A stretch of DNA of 35,624 nucleotides from a virus, in IMG/VR virus record IMGVR_UViG_3300027972_000034, positions 1 to 35,624 of that record, one strand, 5' to 3'. The number at the start of each line of letters is the position of its first letter. Positions within the stretch are counted from its first letter, which is position 1. The notes below the pieces were generated by a model that saw nothing but the letters and a program-made list of their open reading frames with translations, had not been told where the DNA came from and made no database searches. A program made the position numbers and the translations under genes. Shown here piece after piece: positions 3,085-35,624 of this stretch.

Positions 3085-3705
3085 TTATTCTTCTACTTGT
3101 ATAACTGGTACATCTTCCTGAGGAGCTGGGTTCTGGTACAATTTCTTGATAGCTACCTCTACATCAGGGTCTACCTGATACTTTAGCTTTGCCATCTCTA
3201 TTACTTCTTCATAAGAATGCTGAGAAATGATTTTGCTCAATTTCTCAAACTCAGGTGAATTCTTTCTTAACCAAGGTAAGTATGAAACAGAAGCCTTCTT
3301 CTTATCTTTAAGGGCTCCATCGGTGTCCTCATCAGTAACTAACCCTAGGATAGCAGTCAATGTATATCTTCTGGCATAGGTGATAGCTACTCCCTGTAGC
3401 TGAGAGACTGTCAAAATTTCTTTGCCTTCTCGGTTTAACTTTGGAGTCTCTTTAGGCAATGACAATCTAGAATGAATAGGCTCAACTCCTTCCTTGGTGC
3501 TAAATACAGTACAAATAATATCCACTCCATCCATTGAAGTATCAAAGGTATGGGTAAACCCAAGCTCATTTTCTTTTAATAATGGAGTTATTTTCTCAAC
3601 TATATTGTCTAAGCTGGCATACTTGTAATTGTTACCGGCTTTGTCTTTGTTTATAGTTCCAACTGCTTGCTGAAACTTTGCTAACTGCGGATATATTGTC
3701 TCCAT
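3085..3705 (-). CDS. erf: ERF-family single-strand annealing recombinase
   Basis: The 206-residue protein begins METIYPQLAKFQQAVGTINKDKAGNNYKYASLDNIVEKITPLL, the characteristic ERF-superfamily start. SQLQGVAITYARRYTLTAILGL and DEDTDGA follow at about residues 103-132. ERF proteins anneal complementary single strands during phage recombination and genome circularisation. The C-terminal third is variable, as is usual. Neighbours (SSB-tip protein, HTH proteins) and a promoter upstream at 4108-4136 make an early recombination operon. No Shine-Dalgarno sequence is present. Confidence 0.93.
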   Translation of the reverse strand: METIYPQLAKFQQAVGTINKDKAGNNYKYASLDNIVEKITPLLKENELGFTHTFDTSMDGVDIICTVFSTKEGVEPIHSRLSLPKETPKLNREGKEILTVSQLQGVAITYARRYTLTAILGLVTDEDTDGALKDKKKASVSYLPWLRKNSPEFEKLSKIISQHSYEEVIEMAKLKYQVDPDVEVAIKKLYQNPAPQEDVPVIQVEE

Positions 3706-3706
3706 A

Positions 3707-4060
3707 CTAATTGTGATAATTATGAATAATTTGGTCGATGTCTATGATTTCAGCTTCTACTAAGTCTCGATAAGTAGTAACCTCTAACCAAGAGTGAATC
3801 ATCCCTCGAACTCGGTTGATGTGCATAGTCTTGTTTGGTCTGGAATACAATGCAACATACACTGCAAATATTACCCAATTAGGAGTAGAATCAACCGATA
3901 TAGTCTCATCGAGAATTGTTTCGATGTTGGCTAAATTATTGTTGACTCTCTCATGTTCCTGCTGATACTCATCATCCTCATCTCGAGTGCTAACCTCGTG
4001 AATGTCGGCTTTCCAATTGTCGTTGTCTGAGTTGTAATAAGGATCTCCAAATGTTCTCAT
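3707..4060 (-). CDS. Hypothetical early protein, 117 aa
   Basis: I place the start at ATG 4060 (MRTFGDPYYNSDNDNWK...). The longest frame reaches back to 4129, but that start lies inside the promoter 4108-4136, upstream of the expected transcription start. The protein is acidic and polar up to residue 45 (TRDEDDEYQQEHERVNNN). A more structured C-terminal part follows (NWVIFAVYVALYSRPNKTMHINRVRGMIHSWLEVT). No family is recognised. It is the first gene of the recombination operon and ends one base before the ERF gene start. Confidence 0.65.
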   Translation of the reverse strand: MRTFGDPYYNSDNDNWKADIHEVSTRDEDDEYQQEHERVNNNLANIETILDETISVDSTPNWVIFAVYVALYSRPNKTMHINRVRGMIHSWLEVTTYRDLVEAEIIDIDQIIHNYHN

Positions 4061-4149: not shown

Positions 4150-4272
4150 CAAAAAAACCCCAAGCGAATGCTATAGGGTTCCTTTGAGATGGTTCAAATG
4201 AATATTTCCAAGAAGGGTAAAAATATTCTTGCATAAGTTTCAAGTACTCCACTAGTCACTATACCAGTGGTA
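4150..4272 (-). ncRNA. Candidate phage small RNA, about 120 nt
   Basis: A promoter (4306-4278) points at this gene-free stretch, and a rho-independent terminator closes it at 4180-4151. In between lie a 5' hairpin (GTA/TAC plus CCACT/AGTGG, 4273-4244) starting at the predicted +1, and a perfect 8-bp hairpin GAATATTT/AAATATTC (4228-4200) with a 13-base loop. No ORF of useful length is present. Promoter, discrete hairpins and terminator together are the classic layout of a trans-acting small RNA. The loop contains ACCCTTCTTGG, a possible pairing region. The target is unknown. Confidence 0.6.
4151..4180 (-). terminator. Rho-independent terminator of the small RNA and upstream operon
   Basis: Minus-strand AACCC (4180-4176) pairs with GGGTT (4160-4156), with an inner AGC-ATTC-GCT mini-stem, and is followed by seven T (4157-4151). 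It ends the candidate small RNA and any transcript reading through from the 4303-5543 genes. Confidence 0.85.
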
Positions 4273-12393: not shown

Positions 12394-13614
12394 ATGAAAA
12401 TACTCCTATATGCCGACACCCCAACCTGCAATACAGGTTTTGGAATTGTGTCAAAGAGCATTGTCAAATTTTTGTTAAAAAACACTGACAGTGAGATAGA
12501 TATACTAGGAATAAACGAAAGAGGAGTGCATGATGAGCTAAGACACAATCCTAGAGTGATAATAGAGCCAGCAGCTGATGGAGGTGATTTACATGGCAGA
12601 ATAAAGTTGATAAAAAAAATGTCAACAGGAGCTTACAACCATATAATAATGATACATGATCTGATTACAGTACTTCAGCCATTAGATAGTTCTGGAGCGA
12701 ATGTATGTTCGGCAATTGAAAATTTAAAGCCATTTTATCCTGAGCAAAAGTATCATTTTTATTTCCCGATAGACAGTGAGTTCCCAGCAGATGCTGACTT
12801 GTCTCCCTACGAACCTCTAAAGGTGTTTGATTCGCTGATACCTTATACTAGATATGCATCAAAGCAGATACAGAAAATATTTGGGAAAGAAAGAGTAAAC
12901 TTAGTTGATGCTATGTATCATGGAGTTGATACAACTGAGTTCTATCCATTGCCAAGACAGCAAAAAAAGCAGTTAAGAAAAGAATTATTTGATATTACAG
13001 ATAAAAGACCTGTAATAAGCATAATAGCTCGTAACCAGTGGCGAAAAGACATTGCTATGAGTATTCATACCTTCAAAGAATATAAAAAGCTTCAAAAAGA
13101 TGCTTTCTTATACATTCATAGCAAAGCTCAAGATGTCGGTGGAAACTTTATGAGATACCTAGAAGTTTGGGGATTGAAACCAAATGAAGATTACATGGTG
13201 GCAAAAAACCTAGATAATGCAAATGGAATAGCTACTCAAAAATTAAATGAAATCTACAATGCTAGTGATTTGATATTGTCCTCAGCACATGGTGAAGGAT
13301 TTGGATTACCATACCTAGAGGCTATGGCAACAAAAACTGCCATTATGACACCAGCTTTAGGTGTAGAGAAGGAAATACTACCCTATCACTATGTACACGA
13401 ATACACAGGGCTAATTTACGAATCATCAGGGCAGGATGGGACACCATTCCCAAGGGCTAGTGTATTATTCCCAAGAGGAGTGGCTGAAGAAATAGATTCA
13501 CTATTGCAAGAAACTTCTACATTAAAAGACATTAAAGATATAGCTTATGACAATGTAAAGGAAAAGTTTGATTGGGATAAGAATTTACAAATATTATTAA
13601 AAAGACTAGTATGA
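12394..13614 (+). CDS. GT-B (family 4) glycosyltransferase
   Basis: The 406-residue protein starts MKILLYADTPTCNTGFGIVSKSIVKFLL, the glycine-rich N-terminal donor/acceptor loop. Near residues 300-332 it has the GT4 signature ILSSAHGEGFGLPYLEAMATK, then TAIMTPALGVEKEIL. Size and motifs fit a retaining GT-B enzyme. It ends at TGA overlapping the start of the methyltransferase fusion (ATGATG). It is the largest transferase of the cluster and may act first or last in building a glycan. Confidence 0.9.
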   Translation: MKILLYADTPTCNTGFGIVSKSIVKFLLKNTDSEIDILGINERGVHDELRHNPRVIIEPAADGGDLHGRIKLIKKMSTGAYNHIIMIHDLITVLQPLDSSGANVCSAIENLKPFYPEQKYHFYFPIDSEFPADADLSPYEPLKVFDSLIPYTRYASKQIQKIFGKERVNLVDAMYHGVDTTEFYPLPRQQKKQLRKELFDITDKRPVISIIARNQWRKDIAMSIHTFKEYKKLQKDAFLYIHSKAQDVGGNFMRYLEVWGLKPNEDYMVAKNLDNANGIATQKLNEIYNASDLILSSAHGEGFGLPYLEAMATKTAIMTPALGVEKEILPYHYVHEYTGLIYESSGQDGTPFPRASVLFPRGVAEEIDSLLQETSTLKDIKDIAYDNVKEKFDWDKNLQILLKRLV

Positions 13615-14879
13615 TGAAAATGAAGATTGAAGACATCAAATTAAATGAGACTAACCCCAGAGATATAACTCCAGACCAATTTGCTAAATTAAAACTTAGC
13701 TTAACTGACTTTCCTGAGATGTTAGAAACTAGACCATTGATTATTGATGAGGACAATGTGGTACTGGGTGGAAATATGAGGCTCAGAGTCTTAAAAGACT
13801 TAGGATATAAAGAAGTCCCTGTAAAGCAAGTAACTGGATGGACTGAAGAGCAAAAAAAAGAATTTGTAATAAAAGACAATTTAAGCTTCGGTGAATGGGA
13901 TTGGGAGATACTTGCTAATAACTGGGATGCAGCTGACCTGCAAGAATGGGGTCTAGAGGTGCCTATAGAATTTAATGAGGCTGATGATGAGCCAAAGGCT
14001 TTAGAAGATGACTTTGAGATACCTGAAGAGATAGAAACTGATATAATAGAAGGAGATGTGATAGAGTTTGTATCAGATGGAATTGTAAGGCATAGAATGA
14101 TGTGTGGAGATAGTACAAACTCAAGTCACATCGCTAAATTGATGGAAAGTGCTAAAGCTGACTTAGTCTTTACTGATCCGCCATATGGAGTGGATTATAA
14201 AAGCAAAAAACTAGGTGGTATTAAAAACGATACCTTAAAAGATGAGGAACTACATGACTTTATCCGAGATAGCTTTGAACTAGCCATAGAATACAGCAAC
14301 CCAAAAACAGCATTCTACTGCTGGTACGAAGACAAATTTAGGGACACTATTCAAAGAGCATTAGAAAATGCAGGACTACAATACAAATCTAACTTGATAT
14401 GGAATAAAGGAATGAACTTATCTGGAGCAGATTACCAAAAAGCTCATGAGAATTGTCTATACTTTCAAAAGGAAGGTGAGAGAGCTAACTGGTATGGTGA
14501 GCGAGATAAGAAAACTATATTAGGATTAAGGCGAAGAGAAATATTAGAAATGCCAAAGGCAAAGCTTCTCCAAATGATTCTAAATATGCAAGACCAAAGT
14601 ACTGTCTGGGATTTTGATAGAGATAGTGTAATAAACTACAGCCATCCTACTCAAAAACCAGTAACCCTATCAGGAAGAGCAATTCTAAACAATACATTGG
14701 ATGACCAGATTGTACTAGATATGTTTCTAGGGTCAGGGTCAACAATGGTAGCCTGCCACCAAATAAACAGAAACTGCTTTGGAATGGAATTAGACCCTAA
14801 ATATTGTCAGGTGATAGTAGATAGAATGAAAAGTCTAGATTACAATATAATAGTCAAAAAAAATGGAAAAGAGATCTGA
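13611..14879 (+). CDS. ParB-like domain fused to DNA methyltransferase
   Basis: Residues 1-70 form a ParB/sulfiredoxin-like domain (IEDIKLNETNPRDITPDQF, then RPLIIDEDNVVLGGNMRLRVLKDLG at 41-65). The C-terminal part is a DNA methyltransferase with DLVFTDPPYG (184-193, catalytic motif IV) preceding VLDMFLGSGSTMVA (368-381, SAM motif I), i.e. the beta-class order of N6-adenine or N4-cytosine enzymes. The fusion is common in phages beside terminase genes. It probably methylates phage DNA, protecting it from restriction or marking it for packaging. Confidence 0.93.
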   Translation: MMKMKIEDIKLNETNPRDITPDQFAKLKLSLTDFPEMLETRPLIIDEDNVVLGGNMRLRVLKDLGYKEVPVKQVTGWTEEQKKEFVIKDNLSFGEWDWEILANNWDAADLQEWGLEVPIEFNEADDEPKALEDDFEIPEEIETDIIEGDVIEFVSDGIVRHRMMCGDSTNSSHIAKLMESAKADLVFTDPPYGVDYKSKKLGGIKNDTLKDEELHDFIRDSFELAIEYSNPKTAFYCWYEDKFRDTIQRALENAGLQYKSNLIWNKGMNLSGADYQKAHENCLYFQKEGERANWYGERDKKTILGLRRREILEMPKAKLLQMILNMQDQSTVWDFDRDSVINYSHPTQKPVTLSGRAILNNTLDDQIVLDMFLGSGSTMVACHQINRNCFGMELDPKYCQVIVDRMKSLDYNIIVKKNGKEI

Positions 14880-32242: not shown

Positions 32243-32316
32243 AAGGATGTAGTTAAATGGGATAACATTGGTCTCCAAAACCATCATTGTAGGTTCGATT
32301 CCTACCATCTTTGCCA
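32243..32316 (+). tRNA. tRNA-Trp (anticodon CCA)
   Basis: A complete cloverleaf is visible: acceptor AAGGATG/CATCTTT with one G-T pair, D-stem GTTA/TAAC with GGG in the loop, anticodon loop CTCCAAA (CCA, Trp), T-arm GTAGG-TTCGATT-CCTAC and an encoded 3' CCA. The outermost anticodon-stem pair is T-T. It lies between the hairpin leader and the resolvase gene and is read from the promoter at 32132. It may support translation of late phage proteins or replace host tRNA cleaved in defence. Confidence 0.92.
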
Positions 32317-34374: not shown

Positions 34375-34390
34375 TTGCCTTAAACCAAAA

Positions 34391-34415
34391 AGGGAGTGTT
34401 TAACTCCCTCTTTTC
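34391..34415. terminator. Bidirectional terminator between convergent units
   Basis: GGGAG (34392-34396) and CTCCC (34404-34408) form a stem with a 7-base loop, flanked by AAAAA on the left and TCTTTTCTTT on the right. It can therefore end transcripts from both the 34108 gene and the minus-strand genes. Confidence 0.85.
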
Positions 34416-34416
34416 T

Positions 34417-34512
34417 TTATATAATAGCTACTATTGCTATCAATCCAAATAACAATATAAATAACAATAATAATCCTATTATATAATCTAAAGCCTTTGT
34501 TTGATTGTTCAT
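34417..34512 (-). CDS. 31-aa single-helix membrane peptide
   Basis: From ATG 34512 the frame gives MNNQTKALDYIIGLLLLFIL... to TAA 34417, 31 residues with one transmembrane helix (about 11-31). It begins four bases after the stop of the transglycosylase gene, with no Shine-Dalgarno sequence but an A/T start context like other genes. A small lysis accessory (holin-like or spanin-like) is possible given its partner. Its end overlaps the T-rich arm of the terminator at 34391-34415. Confidence 0.5.
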   Translation of the reverse strand: MNNQTKALDYIIGLLLLFILLFGLIAIVAII

Positions 34513-34516
34513 AATT

Positions 34517-35119
34517 TTATTTACTCCATTTACTTTTACTAGCATTCCAAGCTCCAATCCCTCCTCTACTTATCTTGAAAGCCATTGCTTCTACATTTGT
34601 TCTAGGGTCAAAGGGTGATACATATTCTCTTCCCATTTGTCTTAGTGTACCTTCCCAAGTGGATTTTATAAACTGGCTACAGCCTGAAGCAGTTGAATTC
34701 TTATTCTTAGCATTTGGATTTCCTCCTGACTCAGCTTTTATAATCCTCCTCATAACCTCACCGTCTACATTATATTTGGTAGCCATCTCATCTACATAGT
34801 CATAACAGCTTCCATTATATGCTATTTGGTCTTTTTTTGCCTCTCTCGCAAGAGTTTTAGGTTTAGGAGGTATATTGACTGGTTTAGGTTCAGGAATAGG
34901 CTCTAATTGTTCTAATTTGGTGAATACTATTTTACTTGGTGTATAGGGTTGAGCTATAGCTTCTGAGTATTTGAATATCCAAAATATAAATAGTAAACAG
35001 TACAGTGCTATCAGTAAATTCCATTTGTATCTATTGATAGTCTTTTTAGATAATGGACGGTTTTGAATTCGTCTAATATGTTTAATTTAATAATAATACT
35101 CTTTCGAGTCAACAGACAT
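34517..35119 (-). CDS. Membrane-anchored lytic transglycosylase, with in-frame TAA near its 5' end
   Basis: The C-terminal 89 residues (VDGEVMRRIIKAESGGNPNAKNKNSTASGCSQFIKSTWE, GGIGAW) are a goose-type/SLT lysozyme-like domain with catalytic Glu in KAESGG. The frame stays open upstream to 35086 and encodes a transmembrane helix (WNLLIALYCLLFIFWIF), a Pro-rich linker (PIPEPKPVNIPPKP) and then the enzyme. So the 89-residue frame from 34786 is too short. No ATG, GTG or TTG starts the long form. The only good ATG (35119, MSVDSKEYYY) is in the same frame but followed by TAA at 35089-35087. ATT 35086, TAA read-through or a local sequence error could each explain this. Confidence 0.75.
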
Positions 35120-35140
35120 AATCAGTGTTTGAGATATAAA

Positions 35141-35279
35141 GTTCTCAGTGGAGGAGACAAGGATTTGCACCTTGTATAATATACCTGCCGAAAGCAAGAC
35201 GGTATATCTTGAAATGTTAATTCATTCGAAACCTCTTGCACCAAGCGTCTACCTATTCCGCCACCCCTCCATTGAGAAC
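35141..35279 (-). ncRNA. tRNA-like element 1 (tRNA-Leu-like, extended acceptor stem)
   Basis: Read on the minus strand: 5' acceptor GGAGGGG (35270-35264), D-arm GCG...CGC with GGTAGA in the loop (class II tRNA type), a variable interior (35243-35176), T-arm ACAAGG-TGCAAAT-CCTTGT (35175-35157) and 3' acceptor CTCCTCC. No anticodon arm is recognisable. Flanking GTTCTCA/TGAGAAC pairs continue the acceptor helix to about 16 bp and further A/T pairs to about 22 bp. No CCA is encoded. The interior holds CTTG-GTG-CAAG and ATATACC/GGTATAT hairpins. Confidence 0.7.
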
Positions 35280-35304
35280 TCTATATTTTAATGTGCTGTA
35301 TAAA

Positions 35305-35494
35305 GTTCTCAACGGAAGGGACAAGGATTTGCACCTTGTATGAAAGAAAGCAAGTAATCCTGTTATCAAAGCCATATACCATAGAGTTGGCTTCACCCTA
35401 TAAGGACTTTCAGTTATCTAAGTAATAAAAACATTTATCCTTTTTATGTTTTATCTTTAGCGTCTACCTATTCCGCCACCCCTCCATTGAGAAC
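35305..35494 (-). ncRNA. tRNA-like element 2 (same frame, different interior)
   Basis: The 48 bases 35459-35506 (5' acceptor, D-arm and upstream spacer) are identical to 35244-35291 of element 1, and the T-arm is the same. The interior (35458-35340) is longer and unrelated: a near-perfect long hairpin CTAAAGATAAAACAT/ATGTTTTTATTACTTAG and AAGCCA...TGGCTT. The 3' acceptor CCCTTCC and flank TTGAGAAC pair with the shared 5' side to give about 16 continuous pairs, one G-T and a G-T at the discriminator position. The insert is too short for a group I intron. Confidence 0.7.
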
Positions 35495-35519
35495 TCTATA
35501 TTTTAAAGAACTGTATAAA

Positions 35520-35624
35520 GTTCTCAGTAGAGGAGGCAAGGTTTGACTTGCAGATACCCGTTTTCGGGATAGACCAATGTATAAGGCAAGGCTGGTCTTA
35601 ACTAGTATTTTTGTAGTCTGCTAT
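35520..35624 (-). ncRNA. tRNA-like element 3, 5' part cut by window edge
   Basis: The 3' half is present: GTTCTCAGTAGAGGAGGCAAGG (plus strand) with T-arm-like GCAAG-TCAAAC-CTTGC, a CCCG-AAAA-CGGG hairpin as variable arm and AGACC/GGTCT enclosing an 18-base loop. The spacer to element 2 (TATTTTAA..GTATAAAG) matches the one between elements 1 and 2. The 5' half (acceptor and D-arm) would lie beyond base 35624. Confidence 0.6.

Follow-up and report, generated by a model that had tools for sequence, protein, structure and literature searches.

Phage elements combining a constant tRNA-Leu-like shell with exchangeable interiors

In engineered tRNA scaffolds for recombinant RNA, the acceptor, D-arm and T-arm of a transfer RNA (tRNA) are kept and a foreign RNA replaces the anticodon arm, so that tRNA enzymes process and stabilize the insert-bearing RNA. 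The tRNA-miRNA-encoded RNAs (TMERs) of murine herpesvirus 68 (MHV68) join a viral tRNA-like part to a variable functional RNA, transfer-messenger RNA (tmRNA) combines a tRNA-like end domain with another domain replacing the anticodon arm, and the bacterial Y RNA YrlA holds a tRNA-like module within a small non-coding RNA. Phages also encode ROOL and GOLLD, large RNAs of unknown function often located near tRNA islands (PMC12286853). Here we analyze a tandem array of elements, each built as a tRNA-Leu-like shell around a variable interior, in the virus record IMGVR_UViG_3300027972_000034 (the window, comprising all 35,624 nt of this IMG/VR record), together with a family of phage elements sharing the same architecture.

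Engineered scaffolds and the herpesvirus RNAs are probably the nearest analogues of these elements, and the likeness would be one of principle only. In contrast to the engineered molecules, the phage elements are natural, have a 6-bp T-stem and a UGCAAAU loop, lack CCA and carry interiors that have been exchanged in evolution. MHV68 TMERs belong to an animal virus, depend on RNA polymerase III and place their hairpins 3' of the whole tRNA-like RNA, whereas the phage domain sits inside the tRNA fold. Unlike tmRNA, the elements possess a 3-bp D-stem and interiors with a median of about 62 nt, and none of the 336 unique elements assembled here was called as tmRNA; they differ from YrlA in the order of their parts, with no Rfam match in the elements scanned, and are unrelated to ROOL and GOLLD in size and sequence, ROOL being present in few of the scanned loci. 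With tRNA-Leu (RF00005) they share the D-arm, but the anticodon and variable arms are absent, the T-stem has an extra pair, position 55 is G, position 73 varies and CCA is missing.

No Rfam 15 family covered the element above its gathering score in the window and about 60 loci, RF02415 (rliG) overlapping one element at its 5' end only, and the open-access literature searched holds no description of such an RNA, although papers outside that set could hold one. With respect to the databases and open-access literature searched, the RNA class is new. We lean towards reading it as a phage non-coding RNA on a tRNA-Leu shell. Host tRNA-maturation enzymes would cut out and protect this shell, which would display a fast-evolving effector.

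A tandem array of tRNA-like elements

The array occupies positions 35135-35624 on the minus strand, to which all array coordinates refer, and contains two complete elements, E1 and E2, together with the 3' part of a third, E3. Repeat analysis reproduced the features reported in a preliminary description of this sequence, namely repeat spacings of 164 and 215 bp, a 48-base stretch identical in E1 and E2 (35244-35291 and 35459-35506) and a T-arm, ACAAGGTGCAAATCCTTGT, that is the same in both; the inverted arms in the array measure 22 nt. From 5' to 3', each complete element consists of a GGAGGGG acceptor strand, the constant sequence TGGCGGAATAGGTAGACGC, an interior, the T-arm, the acceptor 3' strand and position 73. 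These parts form a 7-bp acceptor stem, U8-G9, a tRNA-Leu D-arm and a 6-bp T-stem closed by the loop UGCAAAU. The anticodon arm is absent and CCA is not encoded, as had been noted previously.

The core of E1 spans 122 nt (35149-35270). Its acceptor 5' strand (35264-35270) pairs with the 3' strand CTCCTCC (35150-35156), position 73 is an A at 35149, U8-G9 and the D-arm lie at 35245-35263, and the T-arm ACAAGG-TGCAAAT-CCTTGT, with its 6-bp stem, at 35157-35175; the 69-nt interior occupies 35176-35244. The 173-nt core of E2 (35313-35485) presents the same type of shell, with U8-G9 and D-arm (35460-35478) and T-arm (35321-35339) identical to those of E1, an acceptor 3' strand reading CCCTTCC, and G at position 73. 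Its 120-nt interior (35340-35459) is unrelated to that of E1, the longest common stretch being at most 9 nt, which agrees with the unrelated interiors of about 68 and 119 bases initially proposed.

The third element falls short of the earlier count of at least three tandem copies. E3 (35514-35624) is a 3' part that ends at the contig end, and the sequence beyond it is unreadable because the window is the complete record. Its extension and acceptor 3' strand match those of its neighbors. The T-arm, GCAAG-TCAAAC-CTTGC, deviates, being 16 nt long where E1 and E2 have 19 nt. A shell scanner rejects E3; its only hits in the window are E1 and E2, and 20 window shuffles gave none.

The acceptor helix can be extended into the flanks. 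In E1 the 3' half of this extension, CTGAGAACTTTATA (35135-35148), faces the 5' half TATAGAGTTCTCAAT (35271-35285), and in E2 TTGAGAACTTTATA (35299-35312) faces 35486-35500; some 13 further flank pairs are possible, with minimum free energy pairing running through TATAGAGTTCTCA/TGAGAACTTTATA. The helix of about 22 bp described earlier therefore does form in the predicted structure, but the same flanks could equally pair as 13-bp hairpins between tandem copies. The extension is also almost restricted to the window. Among 259 family representatives, about 9 show at least six extra acceptor pairs, too few for a long extension to be counted as characteristic of the family.

The shell across the family

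An IMG/VR search with the exact 20-mer GTGGCGGAATAGGTAGACGC returned at least 120 loci. Among those listed, a minority are ordinary tRNA-Leu genes and the majority are organized like E1 and E2, with the D-arm following the acceptor, then an unrelated interior, usually a CAT or TAT, the TGCAAAT T-arm and the acceptor again. Gapped-pattern searches added further elements, placing the family in more than 100 viral contigs, and the final set, drawn from IMG/VR viruses, prophages and isolate phages, comprises 399 elements, 336 of them unique, with 186 different acceptor 7-mers. The expectation set beforehand, that related phages should show conserved ends and hypervariable middles, was borne out in hundreds of phages.

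A scan of one genome per species yielded 69 loci, mostly in Bacillota (lactobacilli, Leuconostoc, Weissella, Listeria, Enterococcus, Bacillus, Paenibacillus and clostridia) and some in metagenome-assembled genomes of other phyla. Within the family of one Lactiplantibacillus genome (G001, the source of locus L181), a narrow pattern matched 16 of 301 genomes, a patchy distribution as expected of prophages, and E. coli genomes gave no match to the single lactobacillus-type element queried. Annotated phages with the element include Lactobacillus Sha1, phiJL-1, LP65 and Satyr, Enterococcus EFDG1, Leuconostoc Ln-9, Bacillus SPP1 and the Listeria phages LP-101, LP-037 and B025, and plasmid records carry elements too. 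Most annotated records lack any feature at the element; in a few, namely LP65, PEF1 and B025, it is overlapped by the annotation of a short protein-coding gene. The window phage itself probably infects a member of the Bacteroidota, since its TerL is related (53%) to those of Cellulophaga phages. The element was not found in Cellulophaga phi17:1, phi12:1 and phi18:1, the closest isolate phages by TerL, and searches via the neighboring protein and a 26-mer found no relatives of the window's own elements.

Across the set, the 19-mer TGGCGGAATAGGTAGACGC is exact in 384 of 399 elements, an invariance that arises partly by selection, the D-arm having been the main search key; when three D-arm positions were left free in a genome scan, the family consensus was still predominant. 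The T-loop TGCAAAT is present in 388 of 399. To avoid selecting on pairing, we evaluated the stems in a fixed geometry set by D-arm and T-loop only, which was chosen over a covariance model because the long variable interior would score as an insertion. Acceptor pairing at six or seven of seven positions was observed in 313 of 327 elements, against about 41 with swapped partners, and all four outer T-stem positions were paired in 303 of 327, against about 106. With six T-stem pairs, the coaxial helix reaches 13 bp; a G occupies position 55.

The tRNA-Leu D-arm, together with a score of 22.6 bits for E1 against the tRNA model in a permissive Rfam scan, could point to decayed or intron-containing tRNA-Leu genes, an alternative raised in the preliminary description. 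That score lies below the gathering score of 29 and leaves 62 interior residues unaligned, while E2 returned nothing; at gathering scores, Rfam agrees with ARAGORN, whose only call in the window is a tRNA-Trp at 32243-32316. A functional tRNA-Leu was rejected for want of a Leu anticodon stem-loop, with no ARAGORN call in the array and, introns of up to 300 nt being allowed, 3 in the 336 unique elements, a result that also speaks against an intron-containing tRNA-Leu. The T-arm departs from the 5-bp stem and TTC-type loop of tRNA-Leu, and the 3' end from its A73 and CCA: A73 is found in 121 of 254 elements (E2 has G73), and one of these 254 encodes CCA. The 6-bp T-stem, G55, the variable position 73 and the near absence of CCA are evidence against a translating tRNA. 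Given, in addition, the uniformity of the 6-bp stem and TGCAAAT loop, the selection on acceptor pairing and interiors that, at a median of 62 nt, are much shorter than group I introns, this explanation is refuted for the family as a whole, and we assign it a probability close to nil. A tmRNA was likewise rejected (ARAGORN, 0/336; no Rfam tmRNA match in the window or the scanned loci).

Retention of acceptor, D-arm and elbow with loss of the decoding part, along with G55 and the frequent location beside phage tRNA genes, is also what would be seen if abundant anticodon-less tRNA mimics served as decoys, occupying host enzymes or defense proteins that act on the tRNA acceptor or elbow, such as nucleotidyltransferase toxins, modification enzymes or tRNA-surveillance enzymes. 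Position 73 and CCA are not conserved, however, and decoy activity alone gives no account of the structured, exchanged interiors described below; we consider this explanation decidedly unlikely.

Variable, structured and exchanged interiors

In the fixed geometry, interiors range from 8 to 192 nt, with a median of 62, and 217 have no relative in the set. The same acceptor, GTGCTTG, occurs with many interiors, and the same interior occurs with different acceptors (L113 versus L082; L003 versus L253 and L284). Where interiors could be aligned, they show the signature of conserved pairing. In family A3, 93.9% of alignment cells are standard-paired and 9 of 11 pairs have changed on both sides, a covariation score reached by none of 500 shuffles, and sliding the partner by one to three columns lowers pairing to 31-42%. 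In family A1, 98.3% of cells are paired and 7 of 13 pairs have changed on both sides (0/500 shuffles), and in A2 both sides have changed in 13 of 27 pairs, shell included. Derivation of these structures from the same alignments biases the comparison with slid versions in their favor; the changes on both sides carry more weight. The insert is a structured RNA under selection in these three interior families; the interiors of E1 and E2 are singletons. A closing stem that ends exactly 2 nt before the T-stem is commoner across families than in shuffles, and E1 follows the same rule with a possible stem, GATATACC/GGTATATT, predicted from its sequence.

We also noted a mini-hairpin-like motif, CTTA-N4/5-TAAG (TTAGACATAAG, TTATAAGGTAAG, TAGACTATAAG), within the first 11 nt of many interiors (L008, L038, L088). 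It lies directly 3' of the D-arm, ahead of the closing stem, in several interior families.

Comparison of loci revealed 37 pairs in which both flanks are similar and the interiors are less than 60% identical, on a scale where unrelated interiors score about 50%; one pair, within L304, stems from overlapping adjacent copies and is to be discounted, and several come from one phage type and are not independent. In the pair L041/L394, the 400 nt upstream are 98% identical and the 291 nt downstream 95% identical; the corresponding values for L282/L287 are 96.5% (230 nt) and 98.5% (400 nt), and the interiors are unrelated in both cases. Such near-identical flanks around unrelated interiors indicate that the segment from D-arm to T-arm is replaced as a unit. 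The interior is therefore an exchangeable cassette, and the family presents the constant shell and unrelated inserts expected of an RNA that works like a scaffold with exchangeable insert. Together with the compensatory changes, these exchanges support the original proposal of a tRNA scaffold carrying exchangeable RNA cargo, the interior being a putative functional cargo.

Genomic context and proposed role

The commonest gene cluster upstream of the elements resembles an ArpU/RinA-type late regulator and the downstream clusters resemble HNH and terminase genes, functions being taken from annotated phages. Neighboring genes are co-directional in 242 of 306 cases upstream and 209 of 303 downstream, and no clear positional signal of a promoter or terminator was detected around the elements. 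Further elements lie within tRNA islands. In SPP1 the element, at positions 3423-3532 of X89721, is located in the head region, between genes 9 and 11, and the RNA predicted from it would measure about 109 nt; in phiJL-1 the element stands 2 nt from the end of the record. Proximity to terminase genes or genome ends, as in phiJL-1, and the resemblance of the middle exchange to recombination at constant ends might suggest a role at the DNA level, as a site for recombination or packaging near cos or terminase formed by a folded strand whose arms resemble tRNA by accident. Elements in tRNA islands distant from terminase and among the SPP1 head genes do not fit such a site, nor do the retention of U8, D-loop and T-loop as in tRNA and the RNA-type covariation of the interiors, G-U pairs included, and we regard it as very improbable.

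The architecture of the elements is as set out above; their processing and function we infer from sequence, as follows. On the favored reading of an effector displayed by a tRNA-Leu shell, the RNA would be transcribed together with the late genes. RNase P would act at its 5' end, its 3' end would be the work of RNase Z or of exonucleases along with the CCA enzyme, and recognition would proceed via acceptor and elbow. Excision from the late mRNA would leave a stable RNA unable to decode, of which the interior would be the effector. Interiors would diversify and swap because their partners, most likely host defense factors or competing phages, change fast. A wider proposition, which we advance tentatively and hold somewhat less than probable, is that the family constitutes an undescribed, widespread class of phage RNAs in which natural tRNA scaffolds bear interchangeable structured effectors as a fast-evolving arsenal for anti-defense or inter-phage competition. 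If so, phages of many hosts make and protect small RNAs on a tRNA-derived chassis whose working part is swapped cassette-wise, a natural counterpart of the laboratory tRNA scaffold and an RNA layer in the phage-host arms race. This would account for a feature that annotation pipelines overlook or bury under spurious reading frames, and would supply hundreds of structured RNA domains for testing.

Several observations weigh against the effector reading. With position 73 variable and CCA encoded in a single element, aminoacylation is dispensable and the proposed addition of CCA is conjecture. Nor need the interior be a large domain, the smallest, in L049, measuring 8 nt. Across 205 loci on partial contigs, the mean longest complementary match of interiors to their own locus is 9.3 nt, versus 9.5 nt in shuffled sequences. 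Finally, a second type of anticodon-arm-less tRNA-like gene, 58-60 nt long, with canonical D-arm and T-arm joined by a 9-11-nt linker and scored by Rfam as tRNA, is found near the main elements (L004:2288-2345; L193:4898-4957, in phiJL-1; L175:7292-7351), which suggests that the shell may be useful in itself.

These short-linker genes, the 8-nt interior and the co-directional position inside late operons keep alive the view that the shell serves as RNA punctuation, an RNase P/RNase Z cutting signal that separates or stabilizes late transcripts, with the interior as filler that folds apart. Filler requires neither compensatory changes nor wholesale replacement between near-identical flanks, and elements also reside in tRNA islands; we judge punctuation unlikely, if still a serious contender. 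Guide-like RNAs, for their part, need a hypervariable insert in a stable scaffold, and an antisense small RNA in a tRNA cage, its interior base-pairing with phage or host mRNAs, would match that design. Interiors evolve as paired structures, however, and the complementarity test, which covers each element's own locus, reveals no excess; an antisense role is hardly credible.

The preliminary description had also placed the array upstream of a wall-hydrolase gene. A transglycosylase-like reading frame (34517-35059, minus strand; PHROGs phrog_4067, E 2.6e-13) does lie downstream of the array, but this arrangement is not the family rule.

Other RNAs occur close to the elements. ROOL was identified in three of the loci scanned (L059:667-1248; L304:3251-3863; L144:7556-8000), in L059 about 20 nt upstream of the element, and the two possibly form a shared RNA island. 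In Listeria phages the element follows the small RNA (sRNA) regions rli62 or rliG, which end beside it, and precedes mcrA RNA (L097:3553-3738 and 3962-4013; L428:3812-3944 and 4187-4237); published Listeria prophage sRNA data may contain reads of such elements. The SPP1 segment with the element includes genes 8-10, morons of unknown function (PMC6316719). In SPP1 (L431, X89721), a small tRNA-like fold of 45 nt, ACGGAC...GTCCGT, in which GGGTTCAATTCCC resembles a T-arm, follows the main element directly at about 3540-3585, and structured RNA may fill the entire interval from gene 9 to gene 11.

Elsewhere in the window, a protein encoded at 13611-14879, close to the terminase, matches both ParB-like nuclease and DNA methyltransferase families, and the minus strand at 34379-34462 gives a sub-threshold sraA-like match of 26.4 bits that is probably merely a terminator hairpin.
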